In this document: one piece after another, positions 35,820 through 57,796 of the stretch
Numbering within the stretch: position 1 is the stretch's first letter
How the letters are laid out: every line of letters starts with the position of its first letter
Source: Sipunculus nudus
Taxonomy: Eukaryota; Annelida; Sipuncula; Golfingiida; Sipunculidae
Reading direction: 5' to 3'
Assembly (NCBI GenBank): GCA_026874595.1
Contig: CM049315.1
Coordinates: 72,897,416 to 72,961,415, forward strand
Length of the DNA: 64,000 nt
Notes under the pieces: model-generated
What the model was told of the DNA's origin: nothing
What the model saw: the letters and a program-made list of their open reading frames with translations, nothing else
Databases searched by the model: none
Translations under genes and position numbers: made by a program

Positions 35820-36630
35820 GTTTTGGGTCCAGTCTAACGCTGGCTCCATCTTTGGTTATAGTGAGTCATTATTTTGTAAAAAGAAGATCTAAAGCCATGG
35901 TTCTGAGCACGTTTGACAGCAGCATCAGCTGTATAGCCATGGTTCCTTTTCTGTTATGGATTATTGATATCTACTCATTCCCGGGAGCAGCATTAATGTA
36001 TGCCGGTCTATCTTTTAACCTGTGCGTAGCCGGCGCCCTCTACCGTCCGCTGCAAACAATTTATTTCACAGATAATGTGGACTCCATTGAGAAGTACATA
36101 GTAAAACAAATTTGTGTTGGTACATGCGAAAATGGCCATATCCATTCTGAGAGTCAAATAGATCACTCTGATTAACCTAATGATACAGCAGTTGAGTTAA
36201 AAGCATTACAAACGACCCGTTTTATCCCATCTATCATATAAAGGTGAAGTAGAGATAGAAAAAGTGACGTCACCAATAAGAGCGCCAGATACGAAAGTAG
36301 CCATTGTCCTCACAACTGCCGGAGCAATTGAAATCATAGGACGATTTTCATTTGGTTTTCTCTCTGACTTGAAACTCATCAAGAGGTACCGGGTGTTGTT
36401 ACAAGGTACGGCGGGCGTTATGACAGGTCTCGTGACCCTTGCTATACCTCACGTGACCAGTCACGTGTGGATAACGATCATGTGCTGCTTGCGGAGTCTC
36501 GTGATGAGCGGGTTTAATGCTCAACGTATCACTGTGATGGCTGATCTCATTCCCGTCCACCAGGTAGCGCCAGGTGTAGGGATGGTTCTGTTTTCCCAAG
36601 GTATGGGAAGCGTTGCTTTCATTGTGGCAG
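35820..36630 (+). pseudogene. MCT copy 3 exon 4 with TM7 loss and frameshift
   Basis: GFGSSLTLAPSLVIVSHYF, then KRRSKAMVLSTF and onward through TM6, to TAA 36173-36175. The downstream part, in a different frame, holds VAIVLTTAGAIEIIGRFSFG, then ADLIPVHQVAPGVG and a GTAGGT donor. It is 811 bases against 955 in copy 1; the missing part covers the end of the loop and TM7. Confidence 0.8.
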
Positions 36631-49258: not shown

Positions 49259-49489
49259 ACACTTTATAGCGAGGGGCCGGTATCTCGAAGCTATCGTTGA
49301 GGTAACGAGCGCTTAAAGACCAAGTCTCAGCAGGGAGGTCGATTAGGTCATATGCTCGTTTTCTATGTATCAAAACACGATGTTATGGTCCATTTAACAT
49401 TAATCTAGCAATTTAATCAATTAAAACGACATTTGAAACTGACGCGCCGAATACACTCCGGAAAATGCCGAAAGCCAAGGGGGAAATCC

Positions 49490-49507
49490 GTGACGTCACG
49501 TGTGGCA
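49490..49507 (+). promoter_or_regulatory. Left subterminal CRE/E-box, likely promoter of the P2X7-type gene
   Basis: GTGACGTCACGTGTGGCA combines a CRE palindrome (TGACGTCA) with an overlapping E-box (CACGTG). It lies 122 bases before the ATG at 49629. The exact inverse occurs at 57242-57259. Confidence 0.5.
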
Positions 49508-49628
49508 GTCGTCTCACACAAGCATCATGGCGTGGCGGTGGTCGAAAGTAAACAATTCGTAAATACAATTCGTCAAATGACAACCAAGCGTCCACCGACT
49601 ATGGTTTAAATTAAGTTATTTCTGAAGT

Positions 49629-49816
49629 ATGTCAGAAAGTGATTGTAGTGATGTAGGATTTGAAAATCCTTGTGGTATTGAACCATTTCGATTTGAGCCA
49701 TTGGTTCGACGAGGCGAGATCGAAGGAGGGTGTACCGAGTGTGACAGTGACAGCCGTGTCAACACAGAATCCGATGAACCGTCTCAGGCGTCTAGTCGAG
49801 CAGGCACAAATGACTG
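49629..49816 (+). CDS. Exon 1 of a P2X7-intracellular-domain gene
   Basis: ATG at 49629 opens MSESDCSDVGFENP, then IEPFRFEPLVRRGE, an acidic Ser-rich stretch and RAGTNDW. The donor GTAATT at 49817 splits the Trp codon. In P2X7-intracellular-domain proteins of invertebrates an IEPYxFEP-like start leads to a DW that is followed at once by the C-x-C-G-x-C zinc-binding segment. That next exon was not found here. The family is a cysteine-rich domain first known from the C-terminus of the P2X7 receptor and widespread as a stand-alone protein. Confidence 0.55.
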
Positions 49817-50508
49817 GTAATTATTTTATTTTACTCGAACATTGAATACATCTCAAGTTTCTGTAATTCGGGCATGTTGATTTATTACACTGAAATAAAT
49901 ATCGCTAAACCAACGCATGAAGCACTGATTTTTTTTTTATGACAGTCATAGGTTTTCCTGGAAAGATGGGTCACAGCTAGCTCATTTCTGTGATTTATTA
50001 AAATGCCATTACTTATCAGTGAGTGGTCATATTTTGTGGATTTAAGAACTATATTGAATAAGATCCTGAAGCAAAAACCAATCTTGCAGTGTATTTCTTA
50101 TCTGAAAATCTTAATTTTGAAAAAAAAAAAATTACTGATATACCTAGCTACTATTAAAGCTGTCATTTGACAAGTGACTTGTGAATTCTCAACCTGGATG
50201 CCATTAAAAATTGAAAAATTATTTTCACAATACTAATTATGATAACATTAAAAAATGATAAATTTTTATAAAAATTTAAATTTCATTTTTATTCTTGCAC
50301 ATATTACATGCACACATATATAATTAATAATTATTTAAAGGCCTACTTCCACCCTCAGGGTGTTTTTGCATATATGAAAGGTATGAACCTACAAATAGAA
50401 TTGATGAAAAAATTACTGACATTGGGGAGCTACTATCCGTGATAGGAACGAATATGTGAACAGAGTCCTGGGAGCCCCCTGAAAAAGTTGAGACAGCCCT
50501 TGGGATGT

Positions 50509-50526
50509 GTGTGACGTCACAACCAG
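50509..50526 (+). promoter_or_regulatory. Left subterminal CRE-like palindrome of the nested element
   Basis: TGTGACGTCACAACCAGA; the inverse is at 53933-53950. No clear gene starts after it. Confidence 0.4.
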
Positions 50527-51047
50527 AACCCCGGTTGCGCGTCCACGTGGTTTCAGCAAGGCCGACGGGTCGATCTGATCAAGCGAGGCGGAGGAATCAT
50601 CGTAAGATGACAATGTCTGAGATACGTTAAAGGAGAATAAAGCGGCGAATTTAGATCTGTAAATTTATGGCAACTTCGACATTAACCCTCGTGTAATTTG
50701 TGGCCATGTATACGTTGTTAGAAACAGAAGTCGGCGACACAGACAGCGGCCGCTGCAAGCCAACACGCCAACAGGTTCGATTCCAGTGACAGGCTGTACA
50801 AAATCGAGGATGGAGTCTGTGGGAATTTTAAAGGATATTCTCAATCTGGTGATTATTATCAAAATAACGAGATCATTCAGTAATATAATATTTAGAGCAA
50901 GAAAATGTAGAGTAGTACAAGATGCCGATGGTGATTCTTGACTTGGTCGAGTTTGTTCAATATCGCCCGCGACGCTTTGCAACAAAGTTTGTTGTTGTGA
51001 TAACATTAACTGTGACAATGTTAACTGGTGACGTGGTGGTTCTGCAA

Positions 51048-51422
51048 AAATCAGCTGATAAGCAACTTGGTTTTGTCGTATGAATAAAGCGCTGGTCCTT
51101 TCTTTTTATCATAATTTTTACATACATGCTTCATAATCAGAAATGCAAAATTGTTGTTTTGACATTGATAAGCGCTTTTTTGTTTAGAAGTAGTATAACT
51201 ATATATACTTTTCGTAAAGCAAGTTTTTACTTGGCAGGCCTTACCTCATAAATACTTGTAACCTTATAGTACCACACACAAGGCTAGTCTTAAATGAAGC
51301 TGTAAACGTACCACAACATCCCGATGGATGGTGGTACTAATTTTAAGTACCCCCCCCCCGGCCCGACATCATTGAAATGATACATACATTTATTTATATA
51401 ATTTACACTCTTTCCTTATATA

Positions 51423-51464
<42 letters not shown>

Positions 51465-51838
51465 CAGCTGATAAGCAACTTGGTTTTGTCGTATGAATAA
51501 AGCGCTGGTCCTTTCTTTTTATCATAATTTTTACATACATGCTTCATAATCAGAAATGCAAAATTGTTGTTTTGACATTGATAAGCGCTTTTTTGTTTAG
51601 CAGTAGTATAACTATATATACTTTTCGTAAAGCAAGTTTTTACTTGGCAGGCCTTACCTCATAAATACTTGTAACCTTATAGTACCACACACAAGGCTAG
51701 TCTTAAATGAAGCTGTAAACGTACCACAACATCCCGATGGATGGTGGTACTAATTTTAAGTACCCCCCCCCCGGCCCGACATCATTGAAATGATACATAC
51801 ATTTATTTATATAATTTACACTCTTTCCTTATATAATT

Positions 51839-51908
<70 letters not shown>
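51048..51908. repeat. 413-base tandem duplication plus TA and AG microsatellites
   Basis: Units 51048-51460 and 51461 to about 51873 are almost identical over their length (single differences such as TAGAAGTAG against TAGCAGTAG), each ending in a TA run. The second continues into (AG)n to 51908. High similarity implies a recent event. Confidence 0.9.
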
Positions 51909-51909
<1 letters not shown>

Positions 51910-51913
<4 letters not shown>

Positions 51914-53930
51914 TTGAATTTGAAATATATAATACAAATCATGAAATTCACATTTTTTAATGAATTATGAAAGTGTCATGGTTATTATAAAAAAAATCAC
52001 ACACACAGTGACAATATAATTATACACAGTATATATATGTTTGATACAGTTCTGTATATAACACTCCACCAGACGGAAAGCCCCATTACTATTATTAATC
52101 TGTTTTATGTTGGCAATGTTATATATAAGTAAAGTTCTTGCCATACTGCCTCAGCTAGGCTTTACTTGTGCAAATAAAAATTTACAAGCAAGATTTTAAG
52201 AATGATTGCTCTGTTTTTGTATGGGCTGATGTAAAACCGTTTATCTGGATTTCAGGGTTACTTTTAGTATCCTCCAATTTAAGAATTGTGTAATATGAAA
52301 AAAAATGTGTCCAGAAACCATACATCCCAGTTATAATACTCTGCATGATAGCAGATTTAATTCCAAGAAAAGTACATTTACAATAAATTATCATTTAAAA
52401 TTATACAAAATAACCAATATGTTGTCTTTGGTAAGGTTGATCAGTATGTGTATAGGTATATTTGGCCTTAATGCATGGGTACTTCGGCCAGTGTATCATC
52501 TGAAGGTTCATGTATAACATCTTTGAGTGCAATATGGCAAATCATACTAACAAGGAAGGAGAGAGCCTGCTGAAACAGGTTTGGAGTTCTCTTTATGACT
52601 GACTGGGTAATTGATTTGATATTTTGTTATATACATACTACAAGTGTCTATCTTTATATATCTACACACACACACGCACACACACATATATATATATATC
52701 ATATTTACATATGTATAAACGTTATATATTAATATTTCATATACAAGTATTTCATACTTAAGTTTATATACTTATTACATTTAAAACACACCTCTTAAAT
52801 TAATATGTATGCGTGTGTGCTGACTTAGCATGCATTTTTTTTTATATAAAAAAGAGATAAAACATTGCTTATCACATTTTATACAACAAATACACATTTT
52901 TAAAACAATATAACATTTTATCATTACAGATACTTAAAAGAAAACTTTAAAAAAAATTCAAACAGTGAAAATATCCTCAACCCATATACAACACACACGT
53001 TTAATGTAAGAAAGTCATTACGAAGCCAATTTTTTTCATATTATTTGGGCACAGAATTCAAATATGCTGAAATGCATGGTATGATTTTTTAAATTGTTAA
53101 TTTTCTGATATTTCAAAAGATTTGAAATATTAAAATGAAATATTTTGATTATTGTCAACAATAAGGAGTAACGGTTTTTAACGTGGGTTTATTTTTTTTT
53201 AAGAATCCTATTAATTGTTTCTCCAATGTTAATGCCTTTGCTGAGGCACCATGCACCGAGCTTTACGTGTCCCCTTCGGTCATATGTGTCTTGAAACTTG
53301 TAAAAAAAAGTCCCAAAATAAAAAATAAAGTTTTTATCATTTACAAGCGTTCAAACACATTTAATAATAAATTAATTGATTTATCAGTTTGATATTATTA
53401 AACTTATACGATCAACAAGCAGCTATATGTTGGTTGTCATATAACATGTCCCTTGAAATCCTGATCCGGCGTCTGTGCAGACTGCGTGGTGCCAGCTCCC
53501 AACGTGTCAAGGCCGAGTCGGGGAATAACAGTTGCAAAGTTGAAGATTAAGAGATACAGGAGTCGTAAAGATGAATAGCAGCATCATTTCCTAGTTAGCA
53601 GCCTACGCATGTAACGGATATAGAGTGGCAACAAAAGTGGCAACAAAGGTGTCTAAATGTCAGGAAAAGTCCGTCCGCACCCTCATGTCAGTTGCCAAAC
53701 CTGGGGAATCCCCTTCCCAGATCATGCCCGGCCGGGTCCAGTTCGGCCTCTTCTGTAAAGGAAATCCTGTCCGTTTGGCACGAACATGTGGCTTATACAC
53801 TTGTTAAAATATTATTAAGCTCATACTATCACCCTTGATGTTACTACTCAACCCGACGACGCAATACTTTGGGATATTTTCCCCAGATCGTGTTAAACTC
53901 AACTGATGCCATTAAAATACCGCCCGATGT
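51910..53930. other. Interior of the nested element, no domain recognised
   Basis: AT-rich. A GC-richer stretch at 53460-53780 has a 60-codon frame (53625-53807) beginning MATKVATKVSKCQEKS with no family match. It may be remnant coding sequence of the element. Confidence 0.35.
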
Positions 53931-53932
53931 GG

Positions 53933-53950
53933 TCTGGTTGTGACGTCACA
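53933..53950 (-). promoter_or_regulatory. Right subterminal CRE-like palindrome of the nested element
   Basis: Complement of the left copy at 50509-50526 over 18 bases. Confidence 0.4.
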
Positions 53951-54970
53951 ATCGCCTTGGCCAGGACGCTTCTGTTTGGCTTGGGGCCCCTGAGTGGGGT
54001 GGATTACGGGTCTTTCGATTTAAATTTTAACGGTTGAGTGCGCAAAGCTTGATTTTATAATACCATAATTTATACATATACATGTAAATGAATAAACCTT
54101 CAGTAGTATTCCCTTTTTTTTAATGGAAGTAGGCCTTTAAAAAGAATAATTTTGCAAATACTAGATTTATACTAGTAATATTTACTGATCTTTTATCAAT
54201 TTCAATAACCTTGCAAGGGCTATTGTTTTCACTCAATTCTCTCTGTGTGTAGGGGTGTCAATAAAATATAAATATAAATATAAAATATATTAATTAACTG
54301 AATTGTATATTATATGAATTACTATGAAAAATTTCATATCTAAAATGATTTAGAATTAACATACAGACAGTAAAAGGTATATATATGCCTTTTTTTCTAA
54401 CTTTGATTACCCTCCCATGCCTGTCATCCACCGCCCCCCCCCCCCCCCCCCTTCCCTTGAAGCCACTGTGTCTGTGTGCAAGGTAATGTAATAGTTGCAT
54501 TACAGATGCTATTGCAATTTTACATATAGATCAGTACAGTGAAAATCTCAGGTGATTACATTTTGGTGTAAATTCAACTCTGGGGTGAAGGGTTTGTTTA
54601 CACCAGGGCATGTTTGACAAGATGAACCTATATATGGCCATCTTTGGAGAGTAGTCATGATGTCATTCCACATGCCATTTCCCTTAAAAGTGTCAGTAAA
54701 TCTTCATACAGCAAGGCAGACCAAGACTGATCTTCATTGTGTTTATAGCCAAGGGCAGCAATATCCCAATGTCCAGGGGTGATTTTCAAAATAATCTCAG
54801 TGGAAAAAAGTTTCCAGGAATAACATGGGTTAATTTACATTTCAGAACACCACCTCTGAACATAAACTTCCATACAGGATTTGCATCCCCAATCAGACAC
54901 TTTTTAATTTTTCTTTAATCATCCTTTGTGATACTGACATTACTTATGATACACAGATATCTTTTTGTAG

Positions 54971-55181
54971 GAAATACAGATACACCACATTCAGGCAGCA
55001 GGTTTGATGGAACTGGGGATTCCTTTGGAGACACATCAGGATACCACTACCAGCATGTGCAGTGAAAAGGATTGAGCAGGCATTTATGTCACATGATTGG
55101 ACACTTTACTTTATAAAGGGTTCAGATGCCCTAGATGGAACTGATGGGTGTACATCCTTGAGCACATTGATGAGAACTTAG
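54971..55181 (+). pseudogene. Last exon of the P2X7-intracellular-domain gene
   Basis: Acceptor TTTTTGTAG. Reads KYRYTTFRQQV, TGA, WNWGFLWRHIRIPLPACAV, KRIEQAF and onward to TAG 55179-55181. The pattern Y-R-x-x-x-x-RQF-x-x-W-x-W-G-x-L, then R-x-x-LP-x-C-x-V-x-x-I-R is the C-terminal half of the P2X7 intracellular domain. An in-frame TGA at 55005-55007 stands where Arg is usual, so this copy is inactivated. The cysteine-rich middle exon is missing. Confidence 0.6.
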
Positions 55182-55367
55182 TTGATAAGATGTATCAATG
55201 AACTTAATTATTTCAGTGCACAAGATCTTACACCACAATTTTTACAGCATATTAAATCAAATTGCACACATATCCTGCATAATAGCAATAATCAAGTATT
55301 TACAATTACAAGATGCAGTAATGGAGCCTTCTAGTCCATGTGCACAATTTTGTGTTTGAGCTGAAGT

Positions 55368-55628
55368 TTACCAGCAGGCATCTGGCGAATATGGTTGGTT
55401 CCGCCACTTCTTGTGCAGGTTACAGTTGTTGCATATCTCGCTTACCTGGACTGCAGTTTTCTTAATAAGAATCACCTGCTCATGTGTACAAGATGTGCTG
55501 TTTGGACAGAGGCTAATCAACTCCTTCAGTTGTGAGTGGAATACAATAAATTTGGGCTCTTGATCTTGGTGTATTTCTTCATCTAAGCTAATGCTTTTGG
55601 ACCATAAAAGGTCCTTAAACAGGACCAC
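55368..55628 (-). pseudogene. Middle region of a THAP-type (Kolobok-like) transposase
   Basis: Encodes PKFIVFHSQLKELISLCP, a Cys/His-rich stretch (CTHEQV, CNNCNLHKKW) and RNQP. The frame then shifts to QMPAGKLQL. In THAP-type transposases a zinc-ribbon with W-x-S-QP followed by K-MPAG-N-LLL precedes the DDE core. The catalytic part below 55368 is too decayed for me to recognise with confidence. Confidence 0.5.
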
Positions 55629-55865
55629 GCAGTCAAAATATCCTCAAAATCCCAGCCCTGTTGCCATATTGGATGTCACATTGGCCTGAAACTTACCACC
55701 CCAAATAACCTGAATGGGACCTATATTCAGAAAATTGTTAAAAGATTATTTAGATGAGGCATTAACAGGATCTTAAGGTACATGTATGTGCTTGGAAGCA
55801 GCGTTGAATTTGCATTTAAAGGATTGATGGATGGACCAAGGACTGATGGACAGACATCAAGGCAA

Positions 55866-56159
55866 TTATTCTTGAGCGGTGCCTGAATAAAAATCAGTCA
55901 GTATGAACAAACTGATATAAGAAAAATCTATAATAAATGTCAAATCTATAAAGATTAAATATTTAACAATAAGTTCATAGGAGGATGAATGGGTATCATA
56001 ATCTTCATCATCAGAAGTGAAGAATTCATCATCATCATTATCATCTGGTTCTTCTTCATCATTGAAGATGCTGCAATCTTCTGTATTTTGGCCAACCCAA
56101 GCTTCACCAATCAGTGAGCACTGGACACCAGCATTTTTTTTTATACATTCACTGGGCAA
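55866..56159 (-). pseudogene. Acidic linker region of the THAP-type transposase
   Basis: Contains NDEEEPDDNDDDEFFTSDDE, a strongly acidic linker of the kind found between the THAP domain and the zinc-ribbon in these transposases. Its position between the two recognised parts on the same strand supports the assignment. Confidence 0.4.
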
Positions 56160-56733
56160 CCCGAATTTTGAAACAATATGCCATTTTCAATGATTTCCAG
56201 GACAATTGAAAGATAACTATTTCATTTGTTATTTTAAAAAATATATATATACTAACATAACTTGTCATAAGATCTTATCACACAACAATCATAGTATTTA
56301 TGCTTTATTAAAATAAAATTGTGCATAATATGGAAATCTGAGGTTAAATAAGGCAAAATGTCACAACTGTTAGCATTAAATGATTATTTAATGAGTGGCC
56401 ACTGTAATTTGTTAACAAACAATTGGGGGTTATGGACACACCCTTTGGCGCACCCCTAATTTGCCGTCTAACTGCCTGGCAATTTGGCAGGAGTTGTGGG
56501 TGTTCATAGGTTTCCCTTGAACAAAAGGGCACAATCCCAGCTTAAAAAATGCAACAACTTTGCACTAGGCCTCGGAGTAGATTAAGCACAACAACCGTGT
56601 TTACATTGGCGATAATAAGGTATATTCAAATCACGTGACAATTTCTTATAATTTAAAATAAATAAATAACTTTCCCTTTTGGCAGTCAATTTCCTCACCG
56701 TTATAGAACCCTTTTCTTCTAATCTAGCGTGCT

Positions 56734-57203
56734 TCACACCTTTTCCCAGCGAGTACCTCGGGCGCTTGGCGGTGTTATCTTGCCCCGGCCCTTGATTGAA
56801 GTTGAAGCAAGGCTGGATCCACTCTCAGTCGGCCTTGAAGCGGGTTCTGGTGGATTTATACTCGGAATTGCCCCTCGTATCAGATTTAGTTGTTTCTTTT
56901 TATATATCCAGCTTCCCATTGCTGATAGTTTTAAAAATCGTCATGGATCCGGAATTGTGCCCCATAAATGAAACTGGAAAGTTTTGCCAGGAGTTCCCGA
57001 CCTCCAATCGGCTCGTCTCTGTCTGACAGGTCCCACCTTTTCCCTAAACGTACGACTTTCGGCCAATTGTGGACGTTCACACTATCCTTAATGGTATTAT
57101 TGCATCCACCAAGAACACCTCGTTTCGTGATTTTGATACTGTGCAAGATATAAATTGTTTGTCGAGGGGAAAAAACACAGCAGTCAAGGATGCAGACCGG
57201 CAA
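56734..57203 (-). pseudogene. THAP-domain exon(s) of the transposase, inactivated
   Basis: The first half reads KRGVLGGCNNTIKDSVNVHN and WPKVVRLGKRW. The second half reads AQFRIHDDF, stop, NYQQWEAG and, in another frame, LIRGAIPSI. These match the THAP fold (C-x4-C, H-x-WPK, C-x-x-HF, GA-x-PSI). Of the four zinc ligands only the second Cys remains: the first is Gly, the third Tyr and the His is Gln. DNA binding is therefore lost. Runs inward from the right end of the element. Confidence 0.6.
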
Positions 57204-57241
57204 GACGCGGCACGTTGACCCATGTGATGTTTACCCACCAG

Positions 57242-57259
57242 TGCCACACGTGACGTCAC
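57242..57259 (-). promoter_or_regulatory. Right subterminal CRE/E-box, likely promoter of the THAP gene
   Basis: Inverse of 49490-49507, identical over 18 bases. Lies just upstream (on minus) of the THAP exon. Confidence 0.5.
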
Positions 57260-57796
57260 TGAAGCCACGCCCACCGCGTATCACCGAGTGCACCTTTGCA
57301 CTCAGCAGCATGATTACCGTGATGTTTCACGGATAAAATGGTGCATTAATTCGATCTCGTTCAGCTTGAAACGGTGTTGGAAGCACTGTATTAACTTATT
57401 AAAAGGGTACATTACGCTTTTTTAACTTATAAAAGTGCATGAAACTTGGACTTTAAAGCATTGTCGGCAGCGCAGTGGCTGGAGTGTGGACTGTCTAGGG
57501 GTCTGACACTCCGCAGCCGACATTGTCGGCTGCCCAATCACTTCCTTATTTTAAAAAGGCCTGAATGTCCTGTTTTCATGCCTACTACCATGCATGATCC
57601 ACGCCTCGTAAAACTTAATGTGATACATACCATTTTACTGGGCTATTACTAATATTTATTATTAAAATACTTGTTCGTTATACAGTATGCTTTTCATATA
57701 TGCCACTAAGTATCAACTGACAAATGCCAGCAGCTGTTTCCCCGTAGGAATGTTTCCTTTGAAAAGGATTGATGTGTTATTTCTAAATCAATATTT

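Follow-up and report, generated by a model that had tools for sequence, protein, structure and literature searches.

Structure of the locus

The window, by which we mean the whole 64,000-nucleotide stretch of Sipunculus nudus DNA analysed here, contains a DNA transposon with TTAA on either flank at 49313-57456 (the outer element). Remnants of a P2X7-type gene (KolX) are read from its left end and remnants of a THAP transposase gene from its right end, and a second element is nested inside it. The features are as follows, where relatives A and B are fuller elements found elsewhere in the same genome.

49313-49316, no strand: left TTAA target-site copy; TTAA plus end pattern found 94 times in the genome
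49317-49329, plus strand: left terminal inverted repeat AGACCAAGTCTCA, identical to the right end at 11 of 13 bases
49490-49507, plus strand: left subterminal inverted repeat GTGACGTCACGTGTGGCA with TGACGTCA at +175; 18-base exact inverted match
49629-49817, plus strand: KolX exon 1, acidic N-terminus; weak match to relative A exon 1 (34 % over 50 amino acids, E 0.049)
50335-54140, no strand: nested Kolobok-type element with TTAA on each side, ends AGGCCTACTTCCA matching at 13 of 13 and TGACGTCA near both; its ends are shared by relatives A and B
53720-53875, minus strand: THAP-exon remnant within the nested element; 52 % over 52 amino acids to the relative A THAP exon, one stop
54971-55103, plus strand: last KolX exon, covering the C-terminal portion of the P2X7 intracellular domain; 53 % over 45 amino acids to a relative's exon, E 6e-13
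55389-55559, minus strand: zinc-ribbon exon of the transposase gene; 35 % over 57 amino acids to relative A, E 6e-9
55866-56186, minus strand: acidic stretch after THAP in the transposase gene, decayed; a reading frame, 62-89 % by pieces in copies L059-L061
56931-57131, minus strand: decayed THAP-domain exon of the transposase gene; tblastn match to relative A (56895-57131) at E 5.6e-4
57242-57259, minus strand: right partner of 49490-49507, a subterminal inverted repeat with TGACGTCA 195 bases inside the right end
57440-57452, minus strand: right terminal inverted repeat, reading inward AGTCCAAGTTTCA; 11 of 13 to the left end
57453-57456, no strand: right TTAA target-site copy

The original prediction, made from the window sequence, described TTAA on both flanks, 13-base terminal repeats agreeing at 11 of 13 bases and an 18-base exact inverted subterminal match, and all three were reproduced at the positions above. 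When the window was shuffled and up to two mismatches were allowed, 3 of 100 shuffles reached two end matches, the pattern used being drawn from the outer-element ends themselves. From the window alone, the terminal-repeat match of the outer element could be due to chance.

KolX exon 1 begins with ATG, has an open frame ending at a donor-like GT and is 84-89 % identical to its counterparts in copies L059-L061. This ATG exon had been described as P2X7-intracellular-domain in style; the exon itself is present and gave no match to the Pfam domain. The last exon, also predicted, is present and preceded by an acceptor AG at 54969-54970. Pfam bore out the domain claims only in part: P2RX7_C matched the last exon weakly (E 0.098), and neither exon 1 nor the window THAP piece had any Pfam match. 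No match to KolX exon 2, which carries the zinc-binding cysteines, was found in the outer element by tblastn with relative A, and the window family retains KolX exons 1 and 3 only.

The last exon in the window carries an in-frame TGA at 55005-55007. The same position is seen in L059, L060 and L061, and an in-frame TGA is present in 28 of the best 29 of 81 last-exon matches (identity at least 91 %, with the window and its duplicate counted). The last exon is free of the stop in a close copy at C17:8746936 and in a more distant one (74 %) at C7:33687255, whose left end lies 8.1 kb off and near which KolX exon 2 was not found in the 1.6 kb examined. At locus L044 (C16) the last KolX exon is nearer to that of the window (63 % over 43 amino acids), and no window-type ends surround it in the 9.9 kb examined.

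The minus-strand THAP and zinc-ribbon region predicted from the right is likewise present, with both exons decayed. The zinc-ribbon frame is open in the window and gives a sub-threshold Pfam match to zf-NPL4 (E 0.0019), the THAP exon is 91 % identical in copies L059 and L060, and the acidic stretch at 55866-56186 has no Pfam match. The DDD/E catalytic core with its C/DxxH signature is missing from the window copy, and tblastn with the DDE exons of relative A found no match anywhere in the 64-kb window.

Copies of the family across the genome

The 94 exact ends in the host genome compare with 2 for a reversed control, and we therefore consider the end match genuine rather than a chance resemblance. 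The boundaries are equally sharp: 38 of the 40 scored left-end copies (best 40 of 100 candidates) start at base 49317 and 37 of the 40 scored right-end copies (best 40 of 64 candidates) reach base 57452; for 30 of the 40 scored left ends (best 40 of 100 and of 64 candidates) there is a right end of matching orientation. Facing end-pairs number 37 in the genome, 28 of them sized 4428-4887 bp, and the last exon of the P2X7-type gene has a match inside 36 of the 37. The longest pairs lie at C6:28107086-28123330, C5:12522607-12532166 and C2:29743233-29751393. Among the matches listed, 26 of the 40 scored left-end copies have, within 9 kb, both a right-end match and a middle match, defined as the stretch from the last exon to the zinc ribbon. 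None of the THAP, P2RX7_C or DDE matches of the genome search falls inside the 37 end-pairs. Coding remnants were inspected directly in three copies (L059, L060 and L061) and were present in all three; their flanks differ and all have TTAA target sites. The window family is a mobile family with copies at unrelated sites. A further copy at C10:73.65 Mb is a segmental duplicate of the window locus with matching flanks.

If a host P2X7-domain gene merely happened to lie beside an unrelated THAP transposon, the TTAA ends being accidental, the only mildly unusual end match in the window (3 of 100 shuffles) would be accounted for. However, neither the excess of exact ends over controls nor the last-exon matches in nearly all end-pairs fits such a juxtaposition, nor do the remnants in every fetched copy and the relatives that carry both genes between shared ends. 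We reject this explanation on the genome copies and regard it as scarcely conceivable. The original prediction had looked to further copies with the same termini and both gene parts as support and to the lack of any second such copy as grounds for refutation; the end-pairs and the remnants in L059-L061 decide in its favour.

All 40 scored copies read without a break over the site of the DDE deletion. They are the best 40 of 89 candidates, a list that leans towards deleted copies because a copy retaining the DDE exons would match the deletion-spanning query as two pieces and rank lower. No autonomous element bearing exactly the window-family ends was found in the genome. A recently active autonomous element with both genes working and some exons missed in the search could explain the open exon 1 with its donor-like GT and the open zinc-ribbon frame. 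Against this, tblastn with relative A matched neither KolX exon 2 within the outer element nor the DDE exons anywhere in the window, the last exon holds a stop and the scored copies share the deletion, so that we reject an intact autonomous copy as very improbable. The KolX gene of the window copy is a fossil, since the family is non-autonomous and this member has lost internal parts of the element.

The site of the nested element is empty in all three fetched copies of the outer family, and its insertion at 50335-54140 makes the window copy longer than other family copies.

Fuller relatives carry both genes

Relative A (9522 bp, contig C3) and relative B (9770 bp, contig C2) have different flanks. 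They are 96-98 % identical in three main aligned blocks, and both have TTAA and 13-base ends. In each, a P2X7-intracellular-domain gene (KolX) lies tail to tail with a THAP/zinc-ribbon/DDE transposase gene between shared ends. Pfam recognizes P2RX7_C in the KolX of relative A (E 4.2e-13) and THAP in its transposase (E 2.9e-15). The stretches GDARCDSPG, TDRH and DVWH follow in order in relative A (catalytic residues assigned by eye), and after DVWH comes a Cys/His-containing exon that may hold an H2CH-type zinc finger; relative B matches the DDE pieces at 97-100 %. Pfam matches to the relative A DDE region are limited to MULE and ISL3, both sub-threshold. In a phmmer search of PDB the KolX of relative A had no match at E 0.001, and a single-exon class II protein matched P2X7 (E 2.5e-26).

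The pairing extends beyond these two elements. Among 30 P2RX7_C matches in the genome, 18 lie within 10 kb of a Kolobok DDE match, where 0.013 would be expected, and all 18 are tail to tail; 10 of the 30 lie 3.6-7.0 kb from a THAP match, again all tail to tail. Together with the gene plan of relatives A and B, this upholds the earlier proposal that the P2X7-type gene belongs to the transposon.

Separately, we observed a third family (L053+L049 and L054+L050) that begins with TTAAAGGTTATAGG and whose two copies cease aligning at the THAP start; its right end was not found.

Assignment to Kolobok

The ends of the outer element are AG...CT, that is 5'-RR...YY-3', as are those of the nested element and of relatives A and B. 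The TTAA sites, these ends, the THAP and zinc-ribbon exons, and the DDE-type exons with DVWH in the fuller relatives uphold the predicted Kolobok assignment, and the absence of the DDE core makes the window copy a non-autonomous derivative, not an autonomous member.

TTAA is common to piggyBac and Kolobok, and proteins of piggyBac elements are mentioned in the same literature (PMC9587614), which would allow a piggyBac-like outer element. The RR...YY ends, however, set Kolobok apart from piggyBac (PMC9587614), relative A has a THAP domain, a zinc ribbon and a DxxH (DVWH) stretch, and its KolX retains, by eye, a Cys-rich part that is mostly absent from the KolX-related piggyBac proteins described there (PMC9587614). 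We reject piggyBac membership on these three points and give it very little credence.

Proposed origin of the window copy

We conclude that the stretch 49313-57456 is very probably a single member of a non-autonomous, high-copy family of Kolobok transposons that descends from a Kol0-type element with two genes. The fuller relatives in this genome show the gene order: KolX runs inward from the left end, the THAP-zinc ribbon-DDE transposase runs inward from the right, and the two genes meet tail to tail. On the line to the window family the DDE exons and the zinc-binding exon of KolX were lost, and a stop stands in the last KolX exon of most copies. The deleted family then multiplied, presumably moved in trans by a transposase that a related element supplied and that used the ends still present. 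We infer for this movement that THAP would bind the subterminal repeats, DDE would cut at TTAA and KolX would assist. At a later step a member of the AGGCCTACTTCC family inserted at a TTAA inside the window copy, and a duplicate of the whole locus, with the nested element, arose about 0.7 Mb away.

In two Kolobok families whose end sequences are unrelated, the palindrome TGACGTCA lies 174-175 bases inside the left end and 189-198 bases inside the right. This nearly constant subterminal spacing in both end-families may not have been described before. One speculative possibility, which we consider rather unlikely as a whole, is that TGACGTCA works as a cis element that even non-autonomous copies have retained, where either KolX or the THAP transposase docks or where a CREB/ATF promoter site taken from the host serves the two opposed genes, and that KolX, the ancestor of the P2X7 tail, is a transposition cofactor acting there. 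A fifth TGACGTCAC site in the window is located at 36264, inside a stretch that by eye resembles a host transporter gene.

The window copy itself is ordinary, an inactive member of a common cut-and-paste family. The 1.43-Gb assembly gives independent support to published work in which P2X7 intracellular domains standing alone are assigned to transposons. With two fuller two-gene elements at hand, it becomes easier to test whether an immune-receptor domain arose from an accessory protein of a transposon, as has been proposed. For annotation, the result is a warning that invertebrate genes named "P2X purinoceptor 7-like" may be transposon parts.

Comparison with known systems

The pairing of a transposase with a P2X7-type gene is already published: KolX is the second protein of Kol0 Kolobok elements, from which P2X7 is reported to derive (Kojima & Bao 2022, PMC9587614), and the Kol0 lineage is reported in vertebrates, annelids, cnidarians and sponges (PMC9587614). 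Kol0 elements of the Kolobok-1_XT type and the present elements have in common TTAA, RR...YY ends and a transposase accompanied by a homologue of the P2X7 cytoplasmic ballast (PMC9587614). Unlike Kol0 as described there, the window copy is internally deleted and has neither a DDE core nor the zinc-binding exon of KolX.

Xenopus Kolobok (XKol) and the T2-MITEs are alike in their TTAA, AG ends and non-autonomous relatives (PMC6004289). The XKol transposase combines THAP, DDE and H2CH in full-length elements of 6.8-13.9 kb (PMC6004289), whereas its end sequences differ from ours and the main text of that report does not mention KolX.

The stand-alone P2X7 ballast/ZCD proteins, reported from sponges, cnidarians, molluscs, arthropods and others, represent the same protein domain as KolX (Rump et al. 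2020, PMC7016195). There, in contrast, they are treated as genes with synteny, and the string "transpos" does not occur in the main text (PMC7016195).

Ends and architecture of the element

The original prediction placed TTAA boundaries, 13-base ends agreeing at 11 positions and an 18-base exact inverted match, all of which we find in place. The outer element also contains a nested one, and two fuller two-gene elements of the same genome, relatives A and B, serve for comparison.

Features of the outer and nested elements, and location of relatives A and B (C2 and C3 are contigs of the host assembly)
49313 and 57453: TTAA target sites flanking both ends of the outer element
Terminal repeats of the outer element: 13 bp, AGACCAAGTCTCA / AGTCCAAGTTTCA, agreement 11/13
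49490 and 57242: subterminal 18-bp exact inverted repeat of the outer element
50335-54140: nested element, 3.8 kb, TTAA on both sides, ends 13/13 identical (AGGCCTACTTCCA)
49490-49498, 50511-50519, 53940-53948 and 57250-57258: TGACGTCA palindromes near the ends of the outer and nested elements
C3, 52238471-52247992: relative A, 9522 bp
C2, 78975539-78985308: relative B, 9770 bp

The empty site of the nested element is a single uninterrupted TTAA in all three outer-family copies fetched, with ungapped agreement around it of 79/84 bases in L061 and of 54 and 57/84 in L059 and L060, two copies that differ slightly in length to the left of the site. Because it has the ends of the A/B family and a THAP remnant recognizable by comparison with A, the nested element is a shorter member of that family. 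Inside it, adjoining TA runs, lies an identical 300-bp direct repeat (51047-51346 and 51460-51759, spacing 413 bp).

Copies in the genome

The search for further copies called for by the prediction was productive. The exact TTAA plus end pattern occurs 94 times in the genome versus 2 for the reversed control, and these ends form 37 facing pairs: 28 at 4428-4887 bp, one at 3.1 kb and eight at 5.2-16.2 kb. A left-type end is joined to a right-type end in 36 of the 37, the other being two left-type ends, and all but the 3.1-kb pair enclose a match to the last exon of KolX, the P2X7-intracellular-domain gene. With the leftmost 1018 bases as query, the match starts at the terminal base in 38 of 40 copies scored (100 candidates), and a same-strand right end accompanies 30 of these 40; with the rightmost 1053 bases, 37 of 40 scored copies reach the terminal base (64 candidates).

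The copy at C10:73654804-73662871, about 0.7 Mb away, is a segmental duplicate of the window locus, since it has both nested-element ends and its flanks match those of the locus at 99.6 % (left, 504 bases) and 97.8 % (right, 538 bases). Elsewhere, three window-family copies at C9:57427918-57540034 are regularly spaced by about 53-54 kb and six nested-family ends at C17:55371676-55605927 by about 46-48 kb, which suggests large tandem segmental duplications.

The P2X7-domain gene as a transposon part

Relatives A and B align in three main blocks at 96-98 % identity, two of which are separated by diverged sequence; both have TTAA and AGGCCTACTTCCA at each end and their flanks differ. From the left, three exons of A, joined by eye, encode a P2X7-intracellular-domain protein (Pfam P2RX7_C, E 4.2e-13) that has no PDB match at E 0.001. 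From the right come a THAP exon (E 2.9e-15), an acidic exon, a zinc-ribbon exon, the GDARCDSPG, TDRH and DVWH exons and a Cys/His-containing exon. The genes thus run towards each other, tail to tail, and B carries the same pieces as A at 93-100 %.

The P2RX7_C profile gives 30 matches in the genome at 28 loci, two of which have two matches each; several are near-identical copies. In 14 control genomes it gives no match. A DDE neighbor within 10 kb (among 32 matches to A's first DDE exon) accompanies 18 of the 30, always tail to tail, against an expectation of 0.013 for independent and uniformly distributed places. Ten of the 30 have a neighbor among the 124 THAP matches at 3.6-7.0 kb, again all tail to tail. 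For two further matches (L043, L045), other pieces of a Kolobok transposase lie on the strand opposite; of the remaining ten, one has a THAP neighbor, and in some the flank is too short to judge. The predicted membership of the P2X7-type gene in the transposon is upheld by these 18 tail-to-tail DDE neighbors and by A and B, which carry both genes.

Other loci (L009-L011, L012 and others) encode single-exon, class II, proteins nearer P2X7 (Pfam E 5.6e-40; PDB P2X7 chains 2.5e-26). At the two examined (L055+L010+L056, C10:28195000-28210534; L058+L020+L057) the gene is arranged tail to tail with one for a Kolobok-like DDE protein, and none of the genome's THAP matches is within 10 kb. L009, L010 and L011 share 99-100 % identity across 3.4 kb. 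At the L010 locus a Cys-rich exon, not recognized by Pfam, precedes the DDE transposase.

Decay of the window family

Compared with A, the outer element retains a weak match to KolX exon 1 (E 0.049), exon 3 at 53 % with one TGA (E 6e-13), a zinc-ribbon exon (E 6e-9) and a THAP exon (E 5.6e-4). Nothing in the window matches the DDE exons of A. Of KolX exon 2, which encodes the zinc-binding cysteines, the window has only an 11-residue match (52467-52499, E 0.38). This match falls within the nested element, where it may have arisen by chance or be left over from the gene of the nested element itself.

An 801-bp stretch, where A has some 4 kb that include the DDE exons, is uninterrupted in each of the 40 copies scored (89 candidates; 41 rows, one copy giving two, in a ranking that favors deletion-bearing copies). 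No THAP, P2RX7_C or DDE genome match falls inside the 37 end-pairs. In the last KolX exon, an in-frame TGA is present in 28 of the first 29 of 81 rows (identity at least 91 %; C17:8746936 is the exception), a count that includes the window and its duplicate and disregards stop position; the position is identical in the window, L059, L060 and L061. Another group of last-exon copies gives split matches that look like frameshifts near residue 14-20; in many of them the first piece contains the TGA. Judged from these sequences, the window family multiplied largely after loss of both genes. It presumably moved in trans, which we infer rather than trace to a source because no autonomous element with exactly the window-family ends was found.

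A subterminal palindrome

TGACGTCA is found at +174/175 from the left end of the window element, of the nested element and of A, and 189-198 from the right end of each; terminal sequences and palindrome flanks differ between the two families sharing this spacing. In the AGGCCTACTTCC family, to which the nested element belongs, 66 ends have TGACGTCA at the set spacing versus 0 for the reversed control, counting palindrome-bearing ends only, all copies of one family and not independent. The left end of a third family (L053+L049, L054+L050) is followed by more than 700 bases free of TGACGTCA, also when one mismatch is allowed. An exact site stands in one of the family's two copies, 111 bases past the THAP-side limit of the aligned block; it may be the right-hand site or lie outside the element. 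In L046, which has KolX exons, the palindrome occurs at 1799 and 9511, the former 208 bases from a candidate TTAA end. TGACGTCA is thus not demonstrated as universal. It could possibly be a transposase or CREB/ATF site.

Comparison with known Kolobok elements

The near-fixed spacing of TGACGTCA in two end-families may be a new feature. Among the papers searched, none has the word Kolobok together with TGACGTCA, a result that speaks only to the literal printed string. The usual Kolobok transposase has THAP, DDE and H2CH, in elements with TTAA and AG ends, as described in PMC6004289. A full-text search for a KolX, P2X7-Kolobok or ballast domain-transposon link beyond PMC9587614 returned only a review with P2X7 and Kolobok once each. 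The prediction had left open whether the gene pairing was catalogued, and it is: according to Kojima & Bao 2022 (PMC9587614), Kol0 Kolobok families encode a transposase plus KolX, residues 476-595 of human P2X7 resemble KolX, and P2X7 originated by fusion with KolX. Since it is described there, the KolX-transposase pairing is already known, and the window family is a new non-autonomous member.
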